A stretch of 64,000 nt of DNA from Aquitalea aquatilis (lineage in GTDB: Bacteria > Pseudomonadota > Gammaproteobacteria > Burkholderiales > Chromobacteriaceae): contig NZ_CP039731.1 in the NCBI RefSeq assembly GCF_005155025.1, positions 4,030,001 through 4,094,000 of the forward strand, read 5' to 3'. Of this stretch, positions 8,306 through 58,211 are shown one piece after another. The notes under the pieces were generated by a model. That model made no database searches and had not been told where the DNA came from. It saw nothing but the letters and a program-made list of their open reading frames with translations. How positions within the stretch are numbered: the first letter of the stretch is position 1; the number at the start of each line of letters is the position of its first letter. The position numbers and the translations under genes are program-made.

Positions 8306-8468
8306 GGCGAGGCCTTTGCTAATGGGCTGCCGGGCTACTGCGCCGGCAGTGGTCGGGATGTGATCTGGAGAGTGATAGTAGCGGGAATGCTGCCGGCGTG
8401 GGGGGCGGCTTGCTGAACGCTGTGTTCGGGAATGTGTGGGGGGTGGGTCTGTGGTGATTAGTGGGTTG

Positions 8469-8625
8469 GAATCCGCTGCGCGGAAAATGGTTTGCCTGCC
8501 GCTTCCGCGCGGCGGACGGGAAAGGGATCTTTGCTTGACCAACGATTCCCACACTTGAATAGCTGGCCGCATTGAATGGCCTGCGGCGGCCCGCCGGGAC
8601 CCGACCGGGGCGAGACCCGCGAAGT
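8469..8625 (+). repeat. Degenerate copy of the hairpin repeat
   Basis: The first 52 bases (8469-8520) align without gaps to 8665-8716, with 42 identities by eye. Downstream similarity is limited to short blocks such as GGCCTGCGGC, and the large variable hairpin seen in the full copies is not intact. It ends in GGGGCGAGACCCGCGAAGT (8607-8625), the core of the 45-bp repeat found at 9231 and 18061. Confidence 0.6.
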
Positions 8626-8664
8626 AGCTTTTGCTGTTGCTTTAAACTGGTGAACACCAAGTGG

Positions 8665-8875
8665 GAATCCGCTACGCGGATGATGTTTTTCACGCCGCTG
8701 CCGCGCGGCAAACGGGAAGGAGGGATTGTGTGGCCAATCCCTCCTTCACCTCCCAGGCCACCCCGGGCAAGCATGGCCTGCGGCTCCCCTCCGGGTCCCG
8801 TCACTGCTGCGGCACGGCTGGAACTCGCGATTGGCTAACGTCCAATCGCTCAAACAGCCAGCCGCTTAAACCCGC
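8665..8875 (+). repeat. Dispersed 211-bp hairpin repeat, copy A
   Basis: This copy aligns end to end with 34176-34386 on the opposite strand, and both are 211 bases long. Two hairpins stand out: GAAGGAGGGATTG / CAATCCCTCCTTC (8716-8728 with 8735-8747, loop TGTGGC) and GCGATTGG / CCAATCGC (8827-8834 with 8842-8849, loop CTAACGT). Loops and flanks are conserved in copy B while both stems have other sequences that are still self-complementary. No coding frame explains it. Confidence 0.8.
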
Positions 8876-9230
8876 AGCAGCGCCACCCCTCGGCATGCTT
8901 GACGGGGGATGGGGTGGCGTCGGTGCGGTGGGGAGTTTGTGGTGGATAGCTGCAATGACGCCCGACTGTGCTGCACCCAGCCCAGTCCTCTCCCAGCAGA
9001 CGCTATAGAAGCAGCCCCATTTATTCCGTAGGCCAAAACAAAACCAACTAGACCGGGCCCCGTCAGCGCAAGCCGACACGGACGTGCCGCTCAGGATGTT
9101 AAGCGGTCGGCTGTCCGCAGCGACACGGTTAGCGCGCCGCAAGTTCCGGCCGCGCCCTGGGCAGCATGGCAGGGGCGGGAATTCGACGCGCTGCGGGTTG
9201 CCTTTTCTTTGGCTTCTGTCTTTTGGCAAA

Positions 9231-9275
9231 AAAAGAAAGAAGCTCGACGGCGGGGCGAGACCCGCGAAGTTAAAC
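9231..9275 (+). repeat. 45-bp dispersed repeat, copy 1
   Basis: Identical to 18061-18105 at 42 of 45 positions; the three differences are all G to A in the segment after AAGCTC. It ends CGAGACCCGCGAAGTTAAAC. This copy lies just beyond the 3' end of the reverse transcriptase gene, where base composition switches from GC-rich to AT-rich. Confidence 0.75.
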
Positions 9276-9339
9276 CATGTAGCGTGCAAGAGATGTAACA
9301 TTACACTTTGACAATGACATTGGGAAGTTTAGAAACATA

Positions 9340-10842
9340 TTATGATGAATAGTCATAATCCAATGATCTTGGATGCATTACTTTTTCAATGCCAATTTCA
9401 GTCACTCCCCTTTTTATTACTTTATATATTAATGTAAAACTAGGTATCTCCAATAGTGTTAGCCCCATAATTCGTTTTCTTCTCATCCGGATGGCGAAAC
9501 GATTTTTGGGTATGCCGCGCGGGAAACACGAGTACGTTACCAATGTCTTTGATGCTACGAGCTTTGCCCTACACTCAATTACCCTATAAACTGTTGAAAC
9601 AAGCCAGCCATCAAGCTCCTTTAATTGTTTCTCATCATCAATCAGCGGGTAAAAACTCATAATGCCCTTGAAATATATTCTCCCACTTCCTCCATTTAAA
9701 AAATCAATTAAATCTTGAGTACTGAGCCCACCGTACATGTATCGTCTAATTTGCGCCAACGCAATTAGCAATGCCTTATCCCCATGAGGTTTTGGTAATA
9801 ATCTAGCATTTACTGGTGTTTGCTTTAGTGGTTGAATTAAATTCTTGTAAAGAAGGTATGATATCTGTTTTTTAATTTTATTGACCGAGTTGGGTTTTAT
9901 CGACACTTTGTCGACCGCAATTGAATAGCCAAGAAAATTAAATGCGCTTTTTGAGTGAATTTCGGCCGGCATATCTCCCTTAATAAGCAGACTTATGCCA
10001 TCGGACTTCTTAGTATTGACCTTTACTCCGGCCTCATTCGAAAAATCAGAAATTAATTCAAACGATCTGCAAATGCTTGAATAACTATCGCTCCAGACAA
10101 TAGTATCGTCAGCGTATCTGGCAAATTTCAAACCAGCCTTTTCAAAACTTCTATCCAATTTCCAGCAAACCATATTTGCTAAAAATAGCGAGATGGAAGT
10201 GCCTTGCGGTATTCCACGCTCTCGCGTTTCCAAAAATGCATTGATTACATACTTATCCTCTTCACCAATAAGAAATCCATTTTTATCGTACTGATCATGC
10301 AAGTATTGATGAGAAATTGACCCGAAAAAATCAGAAAAATCAAACTCTGAAATAAATGCTCTTGAATTTTCTTTTAGCGATACCGATACGTCTTGAATTG
10401 CAAAATGTACATTTCTATCATTTCTGTAGGCGTATGAGAACGAACTAAATCGATGCTTATTTTTTTGAAGCAATCTATTGTAAAATAATTTCGACACAAC
10501 AGAATCTGGAATGGTGTAAATAGATACTTCTCGGCAACCACCGTCAGATTTTTGAATCTTCCTTACAAAGGGAGGATGGGGCTTGTATATCCTAGTTTCA
10601 ATCGCTTTTGCTATGGATTTTGCTATGCTTTTTGATTTTCTTTTTACATAAAATGGATTAAATTTACTATCAATATTCCAATAATCAGGTTTGTGAATGA
10701 TTTTATCAGAATTTATGATAAGTCGTTCTTCATTCCTTTTGTGCTCAAGATGCAAGTAGTTGTGATATTGATGATAGCGTCTAATTAATTTCTTACATTC
10801 TTCTTGTATTAATAGTTCTAGCCTATACTCCAATTTGAACAT
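9340..10842 (-). CDS. Reverse transcriptase, UG/DRT-like (candidate phage defence)
   Basis: The 500-residue protein is an RNA-directed DNA polymerase. Visible RT motifs: KSDGGCREVSIYTIPDSVV (fingers, about 98-116), motif A EFDFSDFFGSIS (about 166-177), motif B GIPQGTSIS (210-218), catalytic YADD (243-246), motif D GVKVNTKKS and motif E FNFLGYSI (301-308). A further 190 residues after motif E hold a thumb-like part and an unassigned C-terminal domain. There is no retron NAxxH/VTG pair, no maturase endonuclease and no Cas1 fusion. The gene is far more AT-rich than its neighbours, a sign of transfer. The ATG at 10842 follows GGAGAG at a proper distance and lies just past an intrinsic terminator; the longer frame to 10905 would translate that hairpin and is rejected. 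Which UG/DRT class it belongs to cannot be settled by eye. Confidence 0.88.
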   Translation of the reverse strand: MFKLEYRLELLIQEECKKLIRRYHQYHNYLHLEHKRNEERLIINSDKIIHKPDYWNIDSKFNPFYVKRKSKSIAKSIAKAIETRIYKPHPPFVRKIQKSDGGCREVSIYTIPDSVVSKLFYNRLLQKNKHRFSSFSYAYRNDRNVHFAIQDVSVSLKENSRAFISEFDFSDFFGSISHQYLHDQYDKNGFLIGEEDKYVINAFLETRERGIPQGTSISLFLANMVCWKLDRSFEKAGLKFARYADDTIVWSDSYSSICRSFELISDFSNEAGVKVNTKKSDGISLLIKGDMPAEIHSKSAFNFLGYSIAVDKVSIKPNSVNKIKKQISYLLYKNLIQPLKQTPVNARLLPKPHGDKALLIALAQIRRYMYGGLSTQDLIDFLNGGSGRIYFKGIMSFYPLIDDEKQLKELDGWLVSTVYRVIECRAKLVASKTLVTYSCFPRGIPKNRFAIRMRRKRIMGLTLLEIPSFTLIYKVIKRGVTEIGIEKVMHPRSLDYDYSS

Positions 10843-10865
10843 ATTGCTCTCCAGTTTTTTAAACA

Positions 10866-10893
10866 AAAAGCCCAAGCGATTAGCTTGGGCTTT
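10866..10893 (-). terminator. Intrinsic terminator in the leader of the reverse transcriptase
   Basis: AAAGCCCAAGC and GCTTGGGCTTT form an 11-bp perfect stem with a 5-base loop; on the minus strand it is followed by TTGTTT. It stops any transcript coming from valS or from the leader promoter only about 24 bases before the RT start codon, so the RT message must read through it. Confidence 0.88.
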
Positions 10894-11033
10894 CCACGGG
10901 TCCAACCTGTCAAAAATAAGTTACCACTTGGTTAAGTTGGTTTTGATGCCAAAGTCCCATCTGGCACATGACTACACTCAAAAGTGGAGACACATCCCAT
11001 CAAAAAGGGGACCCGTTCTTTCCATAAGAAAGT
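10866..11033 (-). ncRNA. Candidate structured RNA upstream of the reverse transcriptase
   Basis: Between valS and RT lies a roughly 170-base segment that can be a small RNA. On the minus strand ACGGGTCC (11016-11009) is perfectly complementary to GGACCCGT (10903-10896), which would close a domain of about 120 bases. Inside it TGCCA/TGGCA, CACT/AGTG and a CC-ACTT/AAGT-GG stem can form, with single-stranded T5 runs nearby. The RNA would end at the terminator at 10866-10893. The position directly 5' of an RT gene is where known UG/DRT and retron RNAs lie. No family was assigned; the 5' end is inferred from a promoter guess. Confidence 0.55.
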
Positions 11034-17365: not shown

Positions 17366-17830
17366 TTATTTGGACGAACTGCAATTTCCTGGTGTAGCCA
17401 TATCCAGATCCGCAATATCAGCTTTTCCCTTTTCTTCAGAAACTTGCTCCAAGCCAGCACCACCCACAAACATACCTAGCTTGATATATTGACGAATAAA
17501 ATAATTCTTACCTGCATCAAACATTACATCAATTGAATTTGCCGAAAACTCTGATTCGGTATCAATTTTATGAACCTTACCGCCAGAAACTTCAGTATGA
17601 AAAAAAACGTCCGGGGCGCTCTCACCCACACACTTGCCGTCAATAAACAAGTCTTTCCTAAGTGCCTTACCGACAAAGCTATTACGATAGATATAAACAC
17701 CAGCATTACCAGCACTGGGGGGATTGAACTCCTTGGCTTTGGCTGAAGCTTCCTTAGGTGCCATGTTTACTGATGCACAGCCGGTAAACAGTAGGGATAT
17801 AGTCATAGCAATAGCAAGCGAGGCTTTCAT
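17366..17830 (-). CDS. DUF2846-like lipoprotein
   Basis: The 154-residue protein has a lipoprotein signal peptide: MKASLAIAMTISLLFTGC, with the lipobox LFTGC and Cys18 as lipid site. The mature part includes GNAGVYIYRNSFVGKALRKD and VFFHTEVSGGKVHKI, the pattern of DUF2846 proteins, whose role is unknown. The gene is clearly more AT-rich than its neighbours, suggesting transfer. The start at 17830 gives a proper signal peptide. Confidence 0.82.
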   Translation of the reverse strand: MKASLAIAMTISLLFTGCASVNMAPKEASAKAKEFNPPSAGNAGVYIYRNSFVGKALRKDLFIDGKCVGESAPDVFFHTEVSGGKVHKIDTESEFSANSIDVMFDAGKNYFIRQYIKLGMFVGGAGLEQVSEEKGKADIADLDMATPGNCSSSK

Positions 17831-18182
17831 CGATCAGTCCATATTTTTAATCATAGAGCTCGACACTCTACAGTAAAAAAACAATGGCATAAAGCATAAT
17901 TCACCTAGGAAAATACACATAAATCACAACAAATTCTTACAACTATTTTTTTGAAAAGTTACTTAAATGCAATGAAAAACCCATGCAGTGCATAACCAAT
18001 CAGAACAAAAATAATTAAGAACAGTAGGCACCGACCCATTTAGTGCAATACGGGCGAAGCAAAAGAAAGAAGCTCAACAGCAGGGCGAGACCCGCGAAGT
18101 TAAACGCAGCGATGCACCATCGTTTGTCGCACAGCAAGGATCAAACCGTTTAAACATCGGGTATCCGCTATGCCGACACCTA
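17831..18182. other. AT-rich intergenic stretch ending in a 45-bp repeat
   Basis: The first 230 bases are AT-rich like the lipoprotein gene and hold no open frame of note. From 18061 the 45-bp dispersed repeat starts and GC content rises to the genome norm. I see no gene here. Confidence 0.7.
18061..18105 (+). repeat. 45-bp dispersed repeat, copy 2
   Basis: Matches 9231-9275 at 42 of 45 positions. As with copy 1, it lies at a junction between AT-rich and GC-rich DNA. Confidence 0.75.
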
Positions 18183-22175: not shown

Positions 22176-22282
22176 CGGCTAAGAAAAATAGCGTAGCGCC
22201 CCTGGGGCAAGGCGCGCCGACGCAGACAGTACAAGCTGTACGGCAAGGAGGCGCAACGCTGCAACAGGGTTTTTCTTAGCCG
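22176..22282. repeat. Long palindromic repeat, copy 1
   Basis: CGGCTAAGAAAAA (22176-22188) pairs perfectly with TTTTTCTTAGCCG (22270-22282). The 80 bases between hold the core CAAGGCGCGCCG, CGCAGACAGTAC, GTACGGCAAGG and GGCGCAACGCTG, shared with 34076-34177. The outer arms differ between copies but are complementary in each. It stands between dxs and the MgtC/DUF4010 gene. Confidence 0.8.
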
Positions 22283-32797: not shown

Positions 32798-33958
32798 ATG
32801 GACTTTGCACTCAACGAACAGCAACTGGCGTTTCAGGACAGCGCGCGTGACTTTGCCAGCAGCCGCCTGGCCCCGTTTGCTGCCGAATGGGATCTGGAAG
32901 AAACCTTTCCGCTCACCACCATCCGCGAAGCCGGCGACATGGGTTTTCTCGGCCTGTACACGCCGGAAAGCTACGGCGGGCTGGGGCTGTCGCGGCTGGA
33001 TGCCGCCATCGTGTTTGAAGAACTGGCTGCCGGCTGCACCTCTACCGCCGCCTATCTCACCATCCACAATATGGTGAGCTGGATGATTGCCAGCTTCGGC
33101 AGCCCCGCACTGGCCGGGGAATGGGTGCCGCGCATGGTCAGCGGCGAATTGCTGGGCAGTTACTGTCTGACCGAGCCGGGTGCCGGCTCCGATGCCGCCT
33201 CGCTCAAGACCCGTGCCGACAAACAGGGTGATGGCTATGTGCTGAACGGCAGCAAGATGTTCATCTCCGGCGCAGGCAGCACCGATGTGCTGGTGGTGAT
33301 GGCCCGTACCGGCGGCCCCGGCCCCAAAGGCGTGTCGGCCTTTGTGGTGCCGGCCAATGCGCCCGGTGTGCAATATGGCAAGAAAGAAAAAAAGATGGGC
33401 TGGAACAGCCAGCCCACCCGCGCCATCACTTTCGACAATGTGCACATCCCGGCCGGCAACCTGCTGGGCGAGGAAGGCATGGGCTTTGCCTATGCCATGA
33501 AGGGGCTGGATGGCGGGCGCATCAATATTGCCACTTGTGCCGTTGGCACCGCCCAGGCCGCACTGAATGCGGCCCAATGCTATGTGCAGGAACGGCAGCA
33601 GTTTGGCCAGCCGCTGGCCGAATTCCAGACCGTGCAGTTTCGCCTGGCCGACATGCTGACCGAGCTGGTGGCCGCCCGGCAGATGGTGCGTCTGGCCGCC
33701 TTCAAGCTGGATAGCGGCAGCCCGGATGCCAGCACCTATTGCGCCATGGCCAAACGCTTTGCCACCGATCTGTCCTTCAATGTCGCCAATAATGCCTTGC
33801 AGCTGTTTGGCGGCTATGGCTATCTGAAGGACTTCCCGCTGGAGCGCCATGTCCGCGATGCCCGCGTGCACCAGATTCTGGAAGGCACCAACGAGGTGAT
33901 GCGCATGATCGTCGCCCGGCAGTTGCTGAAAGACGGCGCACTGGAAAACCTCCGTTGA
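32798..33958 (+). CDS. Acyl-CoA dehydrogenase, probably isobutyryl-CoA dehydrogenase
   Basis: The 386-residue FAD enzyme introduces a trans double bond at C2-C3 of an acyl-CoA. It has the CLTEPGAGSDAAS flavin segment, the FQTVQFRLADM helix and the C-terminal FGGYGYLKDFPLERHVRDA with the catalytic glutamate probably in ILEGTNEV. Placed between mmsA and an HIBYL-CoA hydrolase gene, isobutyryl-CoA is the most likely substrate (inference). GAGGAGAAACC precedes the ATG. Confidence 0.93.
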   Translation: MDFALNEQQLAFQDSARDFASSRLAPFAAEWDLEETFPLTTIREAGDMGFLGLYTPESYGGLGLSRLDAAIVFEELAAGCTSTAAYLTIHNMVSWMIASFGSPALAGEWVPRMVSGELLGSYCLTEPGAGSDAASLKTRADKQGDGYVLNGSKMFISGAGSTDVLVVMARTGGPGPKGVSAFVVPANAPGVQYGKKEKKMGWNSQPTRAITFDNVHIPAGNLLGEEGMGFAYAMKGLDGGRINIATCAVGTAQAALNAAQCYVQERQQFGQPLAEFQTVQFRLADMLTELVAARQMVRLAAFKLDSGSPDASTYCAMAKRFATDLSFNVANNALQLFGGYGYLKDFPLERHVRDARVHQILEGTNEVMRMIVARQLLKDGALENLR

Positions 33959-34075
33959 GAACCCCTATGCACCCTGTTTGTGTGGTGCATGTTGAAATAC
34001 AGGGTTGATGTTGTCGACGCAGCCACGACCCCATCAAGCCTGCCGCCGGATGGCAGACCCGAGGTATTAAGAGCT

Positions 34076-34177
34076 GCTAACAAAACCTCGTAGAGAACCC
34101 GGGCCAAGGCGCGCCGCCGCAGACAGTACATGGCGTACGGCAAGGCGGCGCAACGCTGGAGCGGGGGTTTTGTTAGC
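34076..34177. repeat. Long palindromic repeat, copy 2
   Basis: GCTAACAAAACC (34076-34087) pairs with GGTTTTGTTAGC (34166-34177). The core between shares CCAAGGCGCGCCG, CGCAGACAGTAC, GTACGGCAAGGCGGCG and CAACGCTG with copy 1 at 22176-22282. Outer arm sequences differ from copy 1 at paired positions. Confidence 0.8.
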
Positions 34178-34386
34178 GGGTCTAAGCGGCTGCATGTTTG
34201 AGCCCTGCGACGCTAGCGCAGGGCGAGTTCAGCCGTGCCTCGGGACTGACAGGCCCTGGCAGGCAGCCGCAGGCCAGGCTTACCGGGGTGGCCTTTAGGG
34301 GTGGAGGGGATATTTGGCCACGCAAATATCCCCTCCCTGCCGCCGGGCAGCCCCGGCAATCAAAACCGCACCCGCGCAGCGGATTC
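34176..34386 (-). repeat. Dispersed 211-bp hairpin repeat, copy B
   Basis: Reverse-strand homologue of 8665-8875. Its hairpins are GGAGGGGATATTTG / CAAATATCCCCTCC (34303-34316 with 34323-34336; minus-strand loop CGTGGC) and GCCCTGCG / CGCAGGGC (34202-34209 with 34217-34224; minus-strand loop CTAGCGT). The loops match copy A, the stems do not. Confidence 0.8.
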
Positions 34387-34444
34387 AAGACAACAAAGAT
34401 CGTATACAGACTGTAGGCTCTACTTACCAAGTATCGGGAACGCC

Positions 34445-35227
34445 ATGACACATTACGCTCATCTGCAAGTGGAAATACGCAGCCACACCGCCCAGGTCAC
34501 CATCGACAACCCGCCAGCCAATACCTGGAACCGCGCCAGCCTGAACGCGCTCAAGCAGCTGGTGGCAGACCTGAACGCGGACGACAACATCTACGCGCTG
34601 GTGATCACCGGCAGTGGCAGCAAGTTCTTTTCCGCCGGGGCCGACCTCAACCTGTTTGCCGACGGCAACAAGCTGGTGGCCACCGAAATGACCATGCTGT
34701 TTGGCGAGGCTTTCGAGGCGCTGGCGGCTTTCCGTGGCGTCAGCATTGCCGCCATCAATGGCTACGCCATGGGCGGCGGACTGGAATGCGCATTGGCCTG
34801 CGATATCCGCATTGCCGAGGTACAGGCACAAATGGCGCTGCCGGAAGCCGCTGTCGGCCTGTTGCCCTGCGCCGGGGGCACCCAGCAACTGCCATGGCTG
34901 GTGGGCGAAGGCTGGGCCAAACGCATGATTCTGTGTGGCGAGCGGGTGGACGCCGATACCGCCGAGCGCATCGGCCTGGTTGAAGAGGTGGTTGGCCAGG
35001 GCCAGGCGCTGGAAGCCGCGCTCAAGCTGGCGGAAAAAGTGGCCCGGCAGTCGCCCTCCTCGGTCAAGGTGTGCAAGCAGCTGGTACAGCGCGCGCGCAT
35101 CGAGCCGCCCGGCTATAACCTGATTCACGAACGCGAGCAGTTCATAAAGCTGTTCGACACTGCCGACCAGCAGGAAGGCGTGCAGGCCTTCCTCGCCAAA
35201 CGTACGCCACAATGGCACAACCGCTGA
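34445..35227 (+). CDS. Enoyl-CoA hydratase
   Basis: The 260-residue crotonase-fold enzyme hydrates enoyl-CoA to 3-hydroxyacyl-CoA. It shows ITGSGSKFFSAGADLNLF (oxyanion hole part), INGYAMGGGLECALACDIRIA and EAAVGLLPCAGGTQQLP, with Glu residues in the expected catalytic positions. In this setting methacrylyl-CoA is a likely substrate (inference). The ATG at 34445 gives MTHYAHLQVEIR; a longer frame from 34301 runs through the hairpin repeat and is rejected. The HIBYL-CoA hydrolase gene starts 11 bases after the stop. Confidence 0.92.
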   Translation: MTHYAHLQVEIRSHTAQVTIDNPPANTWNRASLNALKQLVADLNADDNIYALVITGSGSKFFSAGADLNLFADGNKLVATEMTMLFGEAFEALAAFRGVSIAAINGYAMGGGLECALACDIRIAEVQAQMALPEAAVGLLPCAGGTQQLPWLVGEGWAKRMILCGERVDADTAERIGLVEEVVGQGQALEAALKLAEKVARQSPSSVKVCKQLVQRARIEPPGYNLIHEREQFIKLFDTADQQEGVQAFLAKRTPQWHNR

Positions 35228-55094: not shown

Positions 55095-55229
55095 GATTTC
55101 CATCCTGTCGGTATAAAAGCGGCCAACAGCCAGCCGGGCAGATACCCGGCCTTGTGTCAGCCGCCTTGAATGCAAAAGGCGAGCGCCTTCGAGCCTGAGC
55201 CCGAAGCGCGCCCGCCGGGGAGCTGCCGC

Positions 55230-58172
55230 TTACAGCGAGCGAGCCACTTCCACGATTTCGAAAGCTTCCAGTTGGTCGCCTTCCTGGATGTCGTTGAAGT
55301 TCTTCAGCATCAGGCCACATTCGTAACCCTGCTTCACTTCCTTCACGTCGTCCTTGAAGCGCTTCAGCGAGTCCAGTTCGCCGGTATGCACCACCACGTG
55401 GTTGCGGATCAGACGGATCGAAGCGCTGCGCTTGATCAGGCCGTCGGTCACCATACAACCCGCGATATTGCCTACCTTCGACACCGGGATCACCTGACGG
55501 ATCTCGACGGTACCCAGGATTTGTTCCTTCTTCTCCGGAGCCAGCATGCCGGACAGGGCTGCTTTCACCTCGTCTACTGCATCGTAGATGATGCTGTAGT
55601 AACGGATGTCCACGCCTTCGTTTTCGGCCAGCTTGCGCGCAGCGGCGTCAGAGCGGGTGTTGAAGCCGATCACGATGGCCTTGGAGGCAATCGCCAGGTT
55701 GATGTCCGATTCCGAGATACCACCCACGCCGGAGTGCAGGATGCTGACACGCACTTCGTCGGTGGACAGTTTCTGCAGGCTGCCGGCCAGGGCTTCGTAG
55801 GAACCCTGCACATCGGCCTTGATGATGATGGACAAGGTTTGCACCTCGCCACCGCCATCGGCCATCTGGGCAAACATGTTTTCCAGCTTGGCGGCCTGCT
55901 GCTTGGCCAGACGTACGTCACGGAACTTGCCCGCACGGAACAGGGCGATTTCACGCGCCTTGCGTTCGTCGGTCAGCACCATGGCATCTTCACCGGCTTG
56001 CGGCACGTCGGACAGACCCAGAATTTCTACCGGGATGGCCGGGCCAGCGGTGTCGATGGCCTTGCCGTTTTCGTCCATCATGGCGCGAACGCGACCAAAT
56101 GCCGTACCAGCCAGGACCACATCGCCCTTCTTCAGGGTGCCGGACTGAACCAGCAGCGTGGCAACCGGGCCACGACCCTTGTCCAGACGGGCTTCCACGA
56201 TGATGCCCTTGGCCGGGGCTTCGATCGGTGCATTCAGCTCCAGCACTTCAGCCTGCAGCAGGATGGCTTCCAGCAGCGCATCGATGTTGGTGCCCTGCTT
56301 GGCAGAGACTTCGATGAACTGGGTATCGCCACCCCAGTCTTCCGGCACCACTTCGTGCGAAACCAGTTCCTGACGGATGCGTTCTACATTGGCACCCATC
56401 TTGTCGATCTTGTTGACCGCCACCACCATCGGCACCTTGGCAGCCTTGGCATGGTGAATGGCTTCAATGGTCTGCGGCATCACGCCGTCGTCGGCAGCCA
56501 CGACCAGCACCACGATGTCAGTCGCCTTGGCACCACGGGCACGCATGGCGGTAAACGCTTCGTGACCCGGGGTATCCAGGAAGGTGATCATGCCGCGCGG
56601 GGTTTCCACGTGGTAAGCACCGATGTGCTGGGTAATGCCACCGGCTTCGCCCGCAGCCACTTTGGCGCGACGAATGTAGTCCAGCAGCGAGGTTTTGCCG
56701 TGGTCGACGTGACCCATGACGGTTACTACCGGCGGACGCGGCAATACAGCCACTTCCACTTCTTCGCCTTCCGGCTTTTCCAGGTAGGCTTCCGGATCAT
56801 CCGCCTGTGCCGCACGCGGCTTGTGGCCCATTTCCTCCACCACGATCATGGCGGTTTCCTGGTCCAGCACTTGGTTGATGGTCACCATCATGCCCATCTT
56901 CATCAGGACCTTGATCACCTCGACGGCCTTGACGGCCATGCGGTGAGCCAGATCGGCGACGGAGATGGTTTCCGGCACCAGCACTTCATGAATGATGGGT
57001 TCAGTCGGGGCCTGGAAAGCATGCTGATTGTTCTGCTTGTGCTTGCCCTTGCCACCGCGGGATTTCCAGTCGCTGCCGGCATCGCCGCCCTTGGTCTTCA
57101 GACCACGGCCCTTCTTGCCTTCTTCCCAGCGCTCGTTACCCTTCTTGGCGCCGCCCTTCTTGGCATCCGGACGACCGGCTACCGTAGCAGGAACGACCGG
57201 AGCTCCCGGCGCTGCAGCCGGACGCGGGCCACGGTTGTCAGCACCAGCCGGACGCGGACCACGATTGTCGGCACCAGCCGGGCGCGGGCCACGGTTGTCA
57301 CCAGCCGGACGCGGACCACGGTTGTCGCCAGCCGGGCGCGGGCCACGGTTGTCGCCAGCCGGACGCGGACCACGGTTGTCGGCACCAGCCGGACGCGGGC
57401 CACGCTCATCACGGCGCTCGTCGCTGCGCGCTTCAACCGGCTTCGGTGCTTCAACCGGCTTGGGAGCCGGTGCCGGTGCCGGTTGCTGGGCAGCCAGACG
57501 AGCAGCCTGACGGCGCTCTTCACGTTCGATCTTTTCGCGCATCAGCTCTTGCTGACGGGCACGGAAAGCAGCCTGACGCTTTTCTTCCGCTTCACGGGAG
57601 GCTACTTCTTCCGGCGACAGAATGGAGGCCACGGTGCGTACCGGAGCCGGAGCCGGCTTGGCAGCAGGTGCAGCTTCCTTGGCCGGGGCTTCCGCAACCG
57701 GAGCTACCGGTGCGGCGGGCTTGGATTCCACCTTGGGTTCAACCTTTACTTGCGGTTCCGGCTTTGCTTCCGGCTTGACTTCAGCCGGCTTGGTCTCTGC
57801 CGCCGGAGCGGGGGCAGAAACAGGTTCGGCGGCCTTGGCTACCGCAGCGGCAACCGGCGCAACTTCCGCCGGAGCAACTGCCGGACCATCTTCCGGGCGA
57901 ACCACGACACGCTTCTTGCGCGTCTCCACTTTTACCGTACTACCGTCTGCGGTCTTGATTTCACTGGTGGACTTGCGGGTCAGCGTAATACGCGACTCAT
58001 CACGGGCGCCATGCGAACGCTTCAGGTAGTCAAGAAGCTGGGATTTATCCTGCTCAGAGAGCGTATCATCCGGCGCGCGCTTGGCCACACCCGCTGCACG
58101 AAGCTGTTCCAGCAATCGTTCAGGCGTGAGGTTCAGCTCACCGGCAAACTGTTTTACATTCGTCAATACCAT
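55230..58172 (-). CDS. infB: Translation initiation factor IF-2
   Basis: IF-2 is the GTPase that brings initiator tRNA to the 30S subunit and promotes subunit joining. The 980-residue protein has the N-terminal IF2-N fold ([20 protein letters not shown]), a long Pro/Ala/Lys-rich linker, seven RGPRPA repeats (257-319), a second IF2-N-like part (about 395-450), G1 GHVDHGKT (487-494), DTPGHEAF and NKIDKMGAN, then domains II to IV. The ATG at 58172 follows GGAAGACGC. The gene lies between nusA and rbfA. Confidence 0.97.
57213..57404 (-). repeat. In-frame tandem repeat in the IF-2 linker
   Basis: Seven copies of a 27- or 30-bp unit code for RGPRPAG(A)DN, units of 9 or 10 residues. The unit length is always a multiple of three, so changes in copy number keep the reading frame. 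Units differ mainly at synonymous positions (for example ACGCGGGCC versus ACGCGGACC). Confidence 0.9.
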
Positions 58173-58211
58173 GCGTCTTCCCAAATTCCGTAAATACTTC
58201 CCGAAGAAGCC

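Follow-up and report, generated by a model that had tools for sequence, protein, structure and literature searches.

MITE-like elements of Aquitalea whose ends keep a folded shape while their stem sequences change

MITEs and mobile insertion cassettes are short, non-autonomous elements with inverted ends, which lie in intergenic DNA and sometimes hold passenger genes. The dRS3/NIME arrays of Neisseria are intergenic mosaics with short hairpins at their junctions, and we know of no three-tier end in them of the kind described below. Bacterial MITEs are reviewed in PMC10969869. The dRS3 of Neisseria is also named in PMC3733652, as are REP families, which have alternative complementary stem residues, and RAYT genes, some of which lie between long TIRs as TIRtrons.

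The window analysed here, a stretch of 64,000 nucleotides, is part of the 4.36-Mb chromosome of Aquitalea aquatilis. A preliminary description had reported two copies, A and B, of a 211-bp repeat with hairpin stems exchanged in both arms between loops and flanks that are kept, and had contrasted it with REPs, taken to have conserved stems and variable loops. The contrast fails in view of the alternative stems of REP families, and A and B prove not to be complete repeats, each being a single end of a MITE-like element. As in MITEs, there are two inverted ends and a transposase is absent inside (none was seen in cargo with Pfam and PADLOC). However, the ends of a normal MITE keep their sequence for the transposase, whereas here only the pairing and the unpaired letters stay. 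The elements come nearest to a MITE-like cassette, unusual in that shape is kept instead of stem sequence. By description they can also be likened to the dRS3/NIME arrays, sharing with them an occurrence in Neisseriales, intergenic mosaic arrays and short junction hairpins. A literature search, with subscription papers outside its scope, returned no earlier description of this element family, which is not proof of absence.

Anatomy and distribution of the elements

Copies A and B are 73% identical across 211 nt (E = 3.8e-25), and their hairpins 1 and 2 lie and pair as first described (Table 1). The 211-nt match stands, but the equal length of the copies is partly fortuitous, as about 34176-34186, at the end of B, is part of an inserted palindromic repeat of ~96 bp. 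Nor is 211 bp the unit: helix a of hairpin 2 in A reaches 8880, and 9047-9278 holds a second end, which faces inward. Profile searches recovered M ends, which are like copies A and B, and facing P ends, the diverged inverted relatives of M. An element consists of two such inward-facing ends, which are ~240 bp each and enclose a spacer or cargo; element A runs from its M end at 8661 to its P end at 9278. Among the collected loci 83 elements have inward-facing end pairs, the total length being mostly ~450-650 bp, with some holding 0.6-5.5 kb of cargo.

Hairpin 2 is built in the order helix a, AGGCGC, helix b, AACTCGC, helix c and loop CTANCGT, followed by the partner arms, which are separated by GCTCAAACA and TTAAAACC. 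The outermost 20 bp of the elements are kept in Chromobacterium, where both termini are GAATCCGCTGCGCGGATGATG or near it; in Aquitalea the M termini differ from the P termini, and the inner helices vary. The terminal CATC-ATCCGC..GCGGAT hairpin, which is not the element core, is similar to the tags of CGTC-tagged REPs.

Table 1. Features of element A, copy B and related sequences in the window
Feature	Position	Strand	Evidence or context
M-type end of element A (copy A plus inner edge), outer terminus GGAATCCGCTACGCGGATGATG	8661..8905	+	profile search; similarity to G000 copy
Terminal short hairpin ATCCGC-TAC-GCGGAT	8667..8681	+	kept in copies of both Aquitalea and Chromobacterium
Hairpin 1, stem GAAGGAGGGATTG, loop TGTGGC	8716..8747 (arms 8716-8728/8735-8747, loop 8729-8734)	+	sequence; stem variants in other copies
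Three-tier hairpin 2, loop CTAACGT	8804..8880 (loop 8835-8841)	+	alignment, covariation, anchored test
Helix a of hairpin 2	8804-8812/8872-8880	+	
Helix b of hairpin 2	8815-8821/8858-8864	+	
Helix c of hairpin 2 (innermost)	8827-8834/8842-8849	+	
Spacer of element A, without a clear ORF	8906..9046	.	fully diverged from the other copies
P-type end of element A, facing the M end	9047..9278	-	profile search, end pairing
Internally deleted element, M positions 1-164 joined to P outer end (GGCGAGACCCGCGAAGT)	8465..8641	+	
DRT9 defence reverse transcriptase	9340..10905	-	PADLOC E = 1e-207; AT-rich; beside valS
P outer-end remnant (AAAAGAAAGAAGCTC..GGGCGAGACCCGCGAAGTTAAAC)	18061..18105	+	beside AT-rich DUF2846 gene
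Copy B, solo M-type end	34176..34386	-	profile search, similarity to A, ortholog comparison
Hairpin 1 of copy B, loop CGTGGC	arms 34336-34323/34316-34303	-	sequence
Hairpin 2 of copy B (innermost helix), loop CTAGCGT	arms 34224-34217/34209-34202	-	sequence
Remaining inner part of copy B (inner edge and 3' arm of helix a)	34010..34081	-	severed by nested insertion
Palindromic repeat of ~96 bp, unrelated, nested in copy B	34082..34177	.	second copy 22185-22280

Copy B is flanked by two convergent genes whose 3' ends face it, one for an acyl-CoA dehydrogenase (32798-33958, plus strand) and the other an ORF at 34424-35218 (minus strand), and no P end partner was found for it. The orthologous site in genome G004 (L227) is uninterrupted by the nested ~96-bp repeat (GCTAACAAAACC..GGTTTTGTTAGC), whose copy within B shows a possible 3-bp (AAG) duplication. 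Elsewhere in the window, the AT-rich DUF2846 gene and adjoining P outer-end remnant (17366-18105) may be a decayed cassette, and a 27/30-nt tandem repeat occupies 57214-57412 in a long ORF (55170-58193, plus strand) or its antisense.

The copies are dispersed and also clustered in arrays, with the same orientation within clusters, and the set differs from one Aquitalea genome to the next, amounting to as many as 39 model matches. The covariance model finds matches in 47 of 61 Chromobacteriaceae genomes and in 35 of 300 Burkholderiales genomes. The distant matches in Burkholderiales score 30-47 bits and have AACTCGC/GCTCARACA in common; neither the helices nor the apical loop is shared. Several of these matches form inward-facing pairs, also outside Chromobacteriaceae. 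Some of them may be chance matches, whereas the multi-copy paired ones are convincing. With a second model, matches were obtained in 24 of 369 members of the class (Gammaproteobacteria), including one from outside the order (G503) in which paired ends with hairpin cores about 150 bp apart follow the same layout and the outer hairpin resembles the Aquitalea P end.

Orthologous sites differ in the presence of the element. Across congeners the B locus has M ends in some, a deleted remnant in one and no element in at least two, and at an intergenic site by a cobJ-like gene both element number and spacers differ. Copy A is similar to the G000 copy near 748 kb from the preceding P end up to CATGCTTGACGGGG, where the similarity ceases. 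No target-site duplication, clean excision or exact empty site was established in these empty-site comparisons, which are imprecise. A plasmid or phage origin of element A was rejected, as blastn gave no plasmid or phage match to it. As to the spacers, those at the cobJ locus (L236, L237) have a tRNA 3'-half-like stretch (GTGGGTTCAAATCCCAC..GTTT), and six from Chromobacterium (L129, L149, L167, L138, L211, L104) have two DnaA-box-like 9-mers (TTATCCACA/TTACCCACA) about 30 bp apart.

Paired stem replacement and strand-biased mismatches

At the ends of these elements the folded shape and the unpaired letters are constant and the paired letters are free to change. In an anchored test of hairpin 2, for which 235 distinct windows were picked by their unpaired letters only, stem identity was 0.58 and loop identity 0.92, bearing out the exchange of stems in both arms between kept loops and flanks that had been proposed from copies A and B. 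The arms are complementary beyond chance: in helix c, 1843 of 1880 stem cells (98%) are Watson-Crick, with 20 distinct perfect stems. A fold alignment of 42 sequences over the 95-nt end fold has two-sided changes in 29 of its 33 pairs and a covariation score of 0.560, compared with 0.148 +/- 0.010 for shuffled and at most 0.142 for slid controls. Paired cells make up 84.5% (shuffled, 59.3%; slid, at most 43%), and helices a, b and c all vary. This structure was derived from the same sequences, which gives it an advantage over its slid versions; the anchored test is free of that bias. The stem of hairpin 1 is also variable, with pairing retained.

Stem blocks swapped in both arms and stem cells that are nearly all Watson-Crick could arise by copying, in which the arms stay complementary through hairpin-templated repair or template switching and folding is not itself selected. 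Copying does not, however, predict the constancy of the unpaired letters, and neither a copying mechanism nor a double-stranded cruciform is expected to produce a strand bias.

Each A·C mismatch corresponds to a G·T mismatch on the opposite strand. Read inward and counted in distinct +/-3 contexts, A·C mismatches number 89 and G·T mismatches 17 (P = 3e-13, a nominal value because the contexts share ancestry and are not phylogenetically independent). Among variable-pair cells of the element, again read inward, G·T accounts for 1.0% and A·C for 6.0%, whereas in RNase P RNA of the same family, chosen as the wobble control because tRNA was absent from the collected loci and the window, wobble accounts for 13.7% and A·C for 0.6%. 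Of 225 windows, 219 have the more stable fold on the outward strand; with the conserved loops masked, this strand is favoured in 196 of 219. A separate Burkholderiales set gave 21 A·C and 5 G·T mismatches, with the outward strand better in 26 of 32, and the sign of the mismatch bias is repeated across families.

The strand-biased mismatches are a new result: given the inward excess of A·C over G·T, wobble is tolerated only in the outward-running strand. A DNA cruciform, initially preferred on the rarity of top-strand G·T, was dropped on the A·C excess. Copying likewise offers no reason for inward A·C to be five times as frequent as G·T, and we consider it improbable. It had been suggested that selection or copying keeps the pairing; selection is needed, and copying by itself is not enough. 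What is selected at each end is therefore one strand in its folded form, the outward one, as either RNA or ssDNA, and not a symmetry of copying. RNA is the more likely of the two, as it best fits the wobble tolerance.

An RNA-like wobble bias would also be seen if the ends were structured RNAs useful to the host, such as bidirectional 3' ends, mRNA stabilisers or terminators, which had spread by recombination or gene conversion with mobility incidental. In keeping with this, elements are often found after intrinsic terminators or between convergent genes, and the M end is downstream of most cargo genes in the sense orientation. Against it, the number of copies in related genomes runs from 0 to 39, and a search of the ends in Rfam matched no family, on which ground a known structured RNA was rejected. 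Moreover, solo B-locus orthologs have single-sided pair-breaking changes (CCTGTG/CGCAGG, CCTGCG/CGTAGG), as is expected if a fixed site has no need of pairing. Taken together, a host function of this sort seems rather unlikely to account for the repeats.

Recognition of the ends, cargo and candidate mobilisers

The repeat is probably one end of a non-autonomous mobile element, the folded outward strand of which is recognised in trans and needed for spread. Two inward-facing structured ends flank a spacer that optionally holds cargo genes. The strand that would fold as a single strand is, at either end, the one leading out of the element in its 5'-to-3' direction. A trans-acting factor would read letters that are constant and unpaired, namely loop CTANCGT, internal loop AACTCGC/GCTCARACA and TTAAAA, and that helices of any sequence could hold in place. 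Were this recognition required for the element to spread, the helices would be able to drift by compensated changes while pairing persists. None of the elements examined carries such a factor.

Where an M end is paired with a single P end, the ORFs mostly point away from P and towards M (L063, L065, L067, L069, L072, L075, L098), and in one element (L074) the directions are mixed. Cargo families recognised with Pfam and PADLOC are barstar, DUF2971 (the PDC-S31 candidate defence family), WYL and MauJ-like, most cargo being without a family. The DRT9 gene directly adjoins element A but lies outside the M-P interval, and this flank is missing from 9 of 9 congeners. DRT9 is described in PMC12489045 and PMC12483538.

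The search for mobiliser genes covered the Y1, IntI and RT families and yielded no parent transposase. Movement by a resident RT was rejected: RVT_1 occurs in only 3 of 10 Aquitalea genomes, with an RT absent from the other 7, and the one beside A is the DRT9 defence RT. The elements resemble REPs and BIMEs in being palindromic, intergenic and clustered with alternative complementary stems, and the long TIRs of TIRtrons offer a further parallel, so that movement by a RAYT, an IS200-like Y1 transposase, could be envisaged. The RAYT-like transposase whose presence had been suggested was looked for, but PF01797 is missing from all 8 Aquitalea genomes tested, which carry 1-39 model matches. REPs, moreover, are 20-40 bp, whereas here the ends are ~240 bp, with several hairpins including the three-tier one, in elements of 450-650 bp or more, and wobble is strand-specific. 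A RAYT/REP origin was rejected on the lack of a Y1 transposase in the tested genomes, and we regard it as very improbable. REP-like sequences do occur in some elements: head-to-head CGTC-REP-like dimers are central in paired-end elements of genome G648 (L379-L386), and a ~32-bp GTAG-tagged REP-like palindrome (CTACGTGCGAATCTTTGATTCGCTCAGTGAT) is inserted within element hairpins at L149, L104 and L175 (twice, inverted).

Integron gene cassettes with attC sites are alike in a different way. There, too, a gene is followed by a folded site that favours one strand and puts structure over sequence, with variable stems, and the cassettes form arrays with orphan cargo. However, the present elements have two inward-facing ends in inverted orientation per cassette instead of a single attC, and intact IntI was found in none of 10 Aquitalea genomes (one fragment, in G009) and in few of the family. 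The elements were rejected as integron cassettes, an identity we hold to be extremely doubtful.

A broader and more tentative suggestion, which we put forward only as a possibility, is that these elements represent a proteobacterial class of mobile cassettes without a recombinase of their own, the ends of which a factor recognises as a folded outward strand. Such cassettes would combine an integron-like logic with a MITE-like layout and be free of any fixed stem sequence. The element ends are widespread and escape ordinary sequence searches because the helices change and only the shape and a few unpaired letters stay. The elements bring variable genes, candidate defence genes included, to fixed chromosomal sites, and the wobble test provides a simple means to tell which strand of such repeats is selected. 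If it is true that a mobiliser reads the folded strand, they would constitute a second cassette system alongside integrons.
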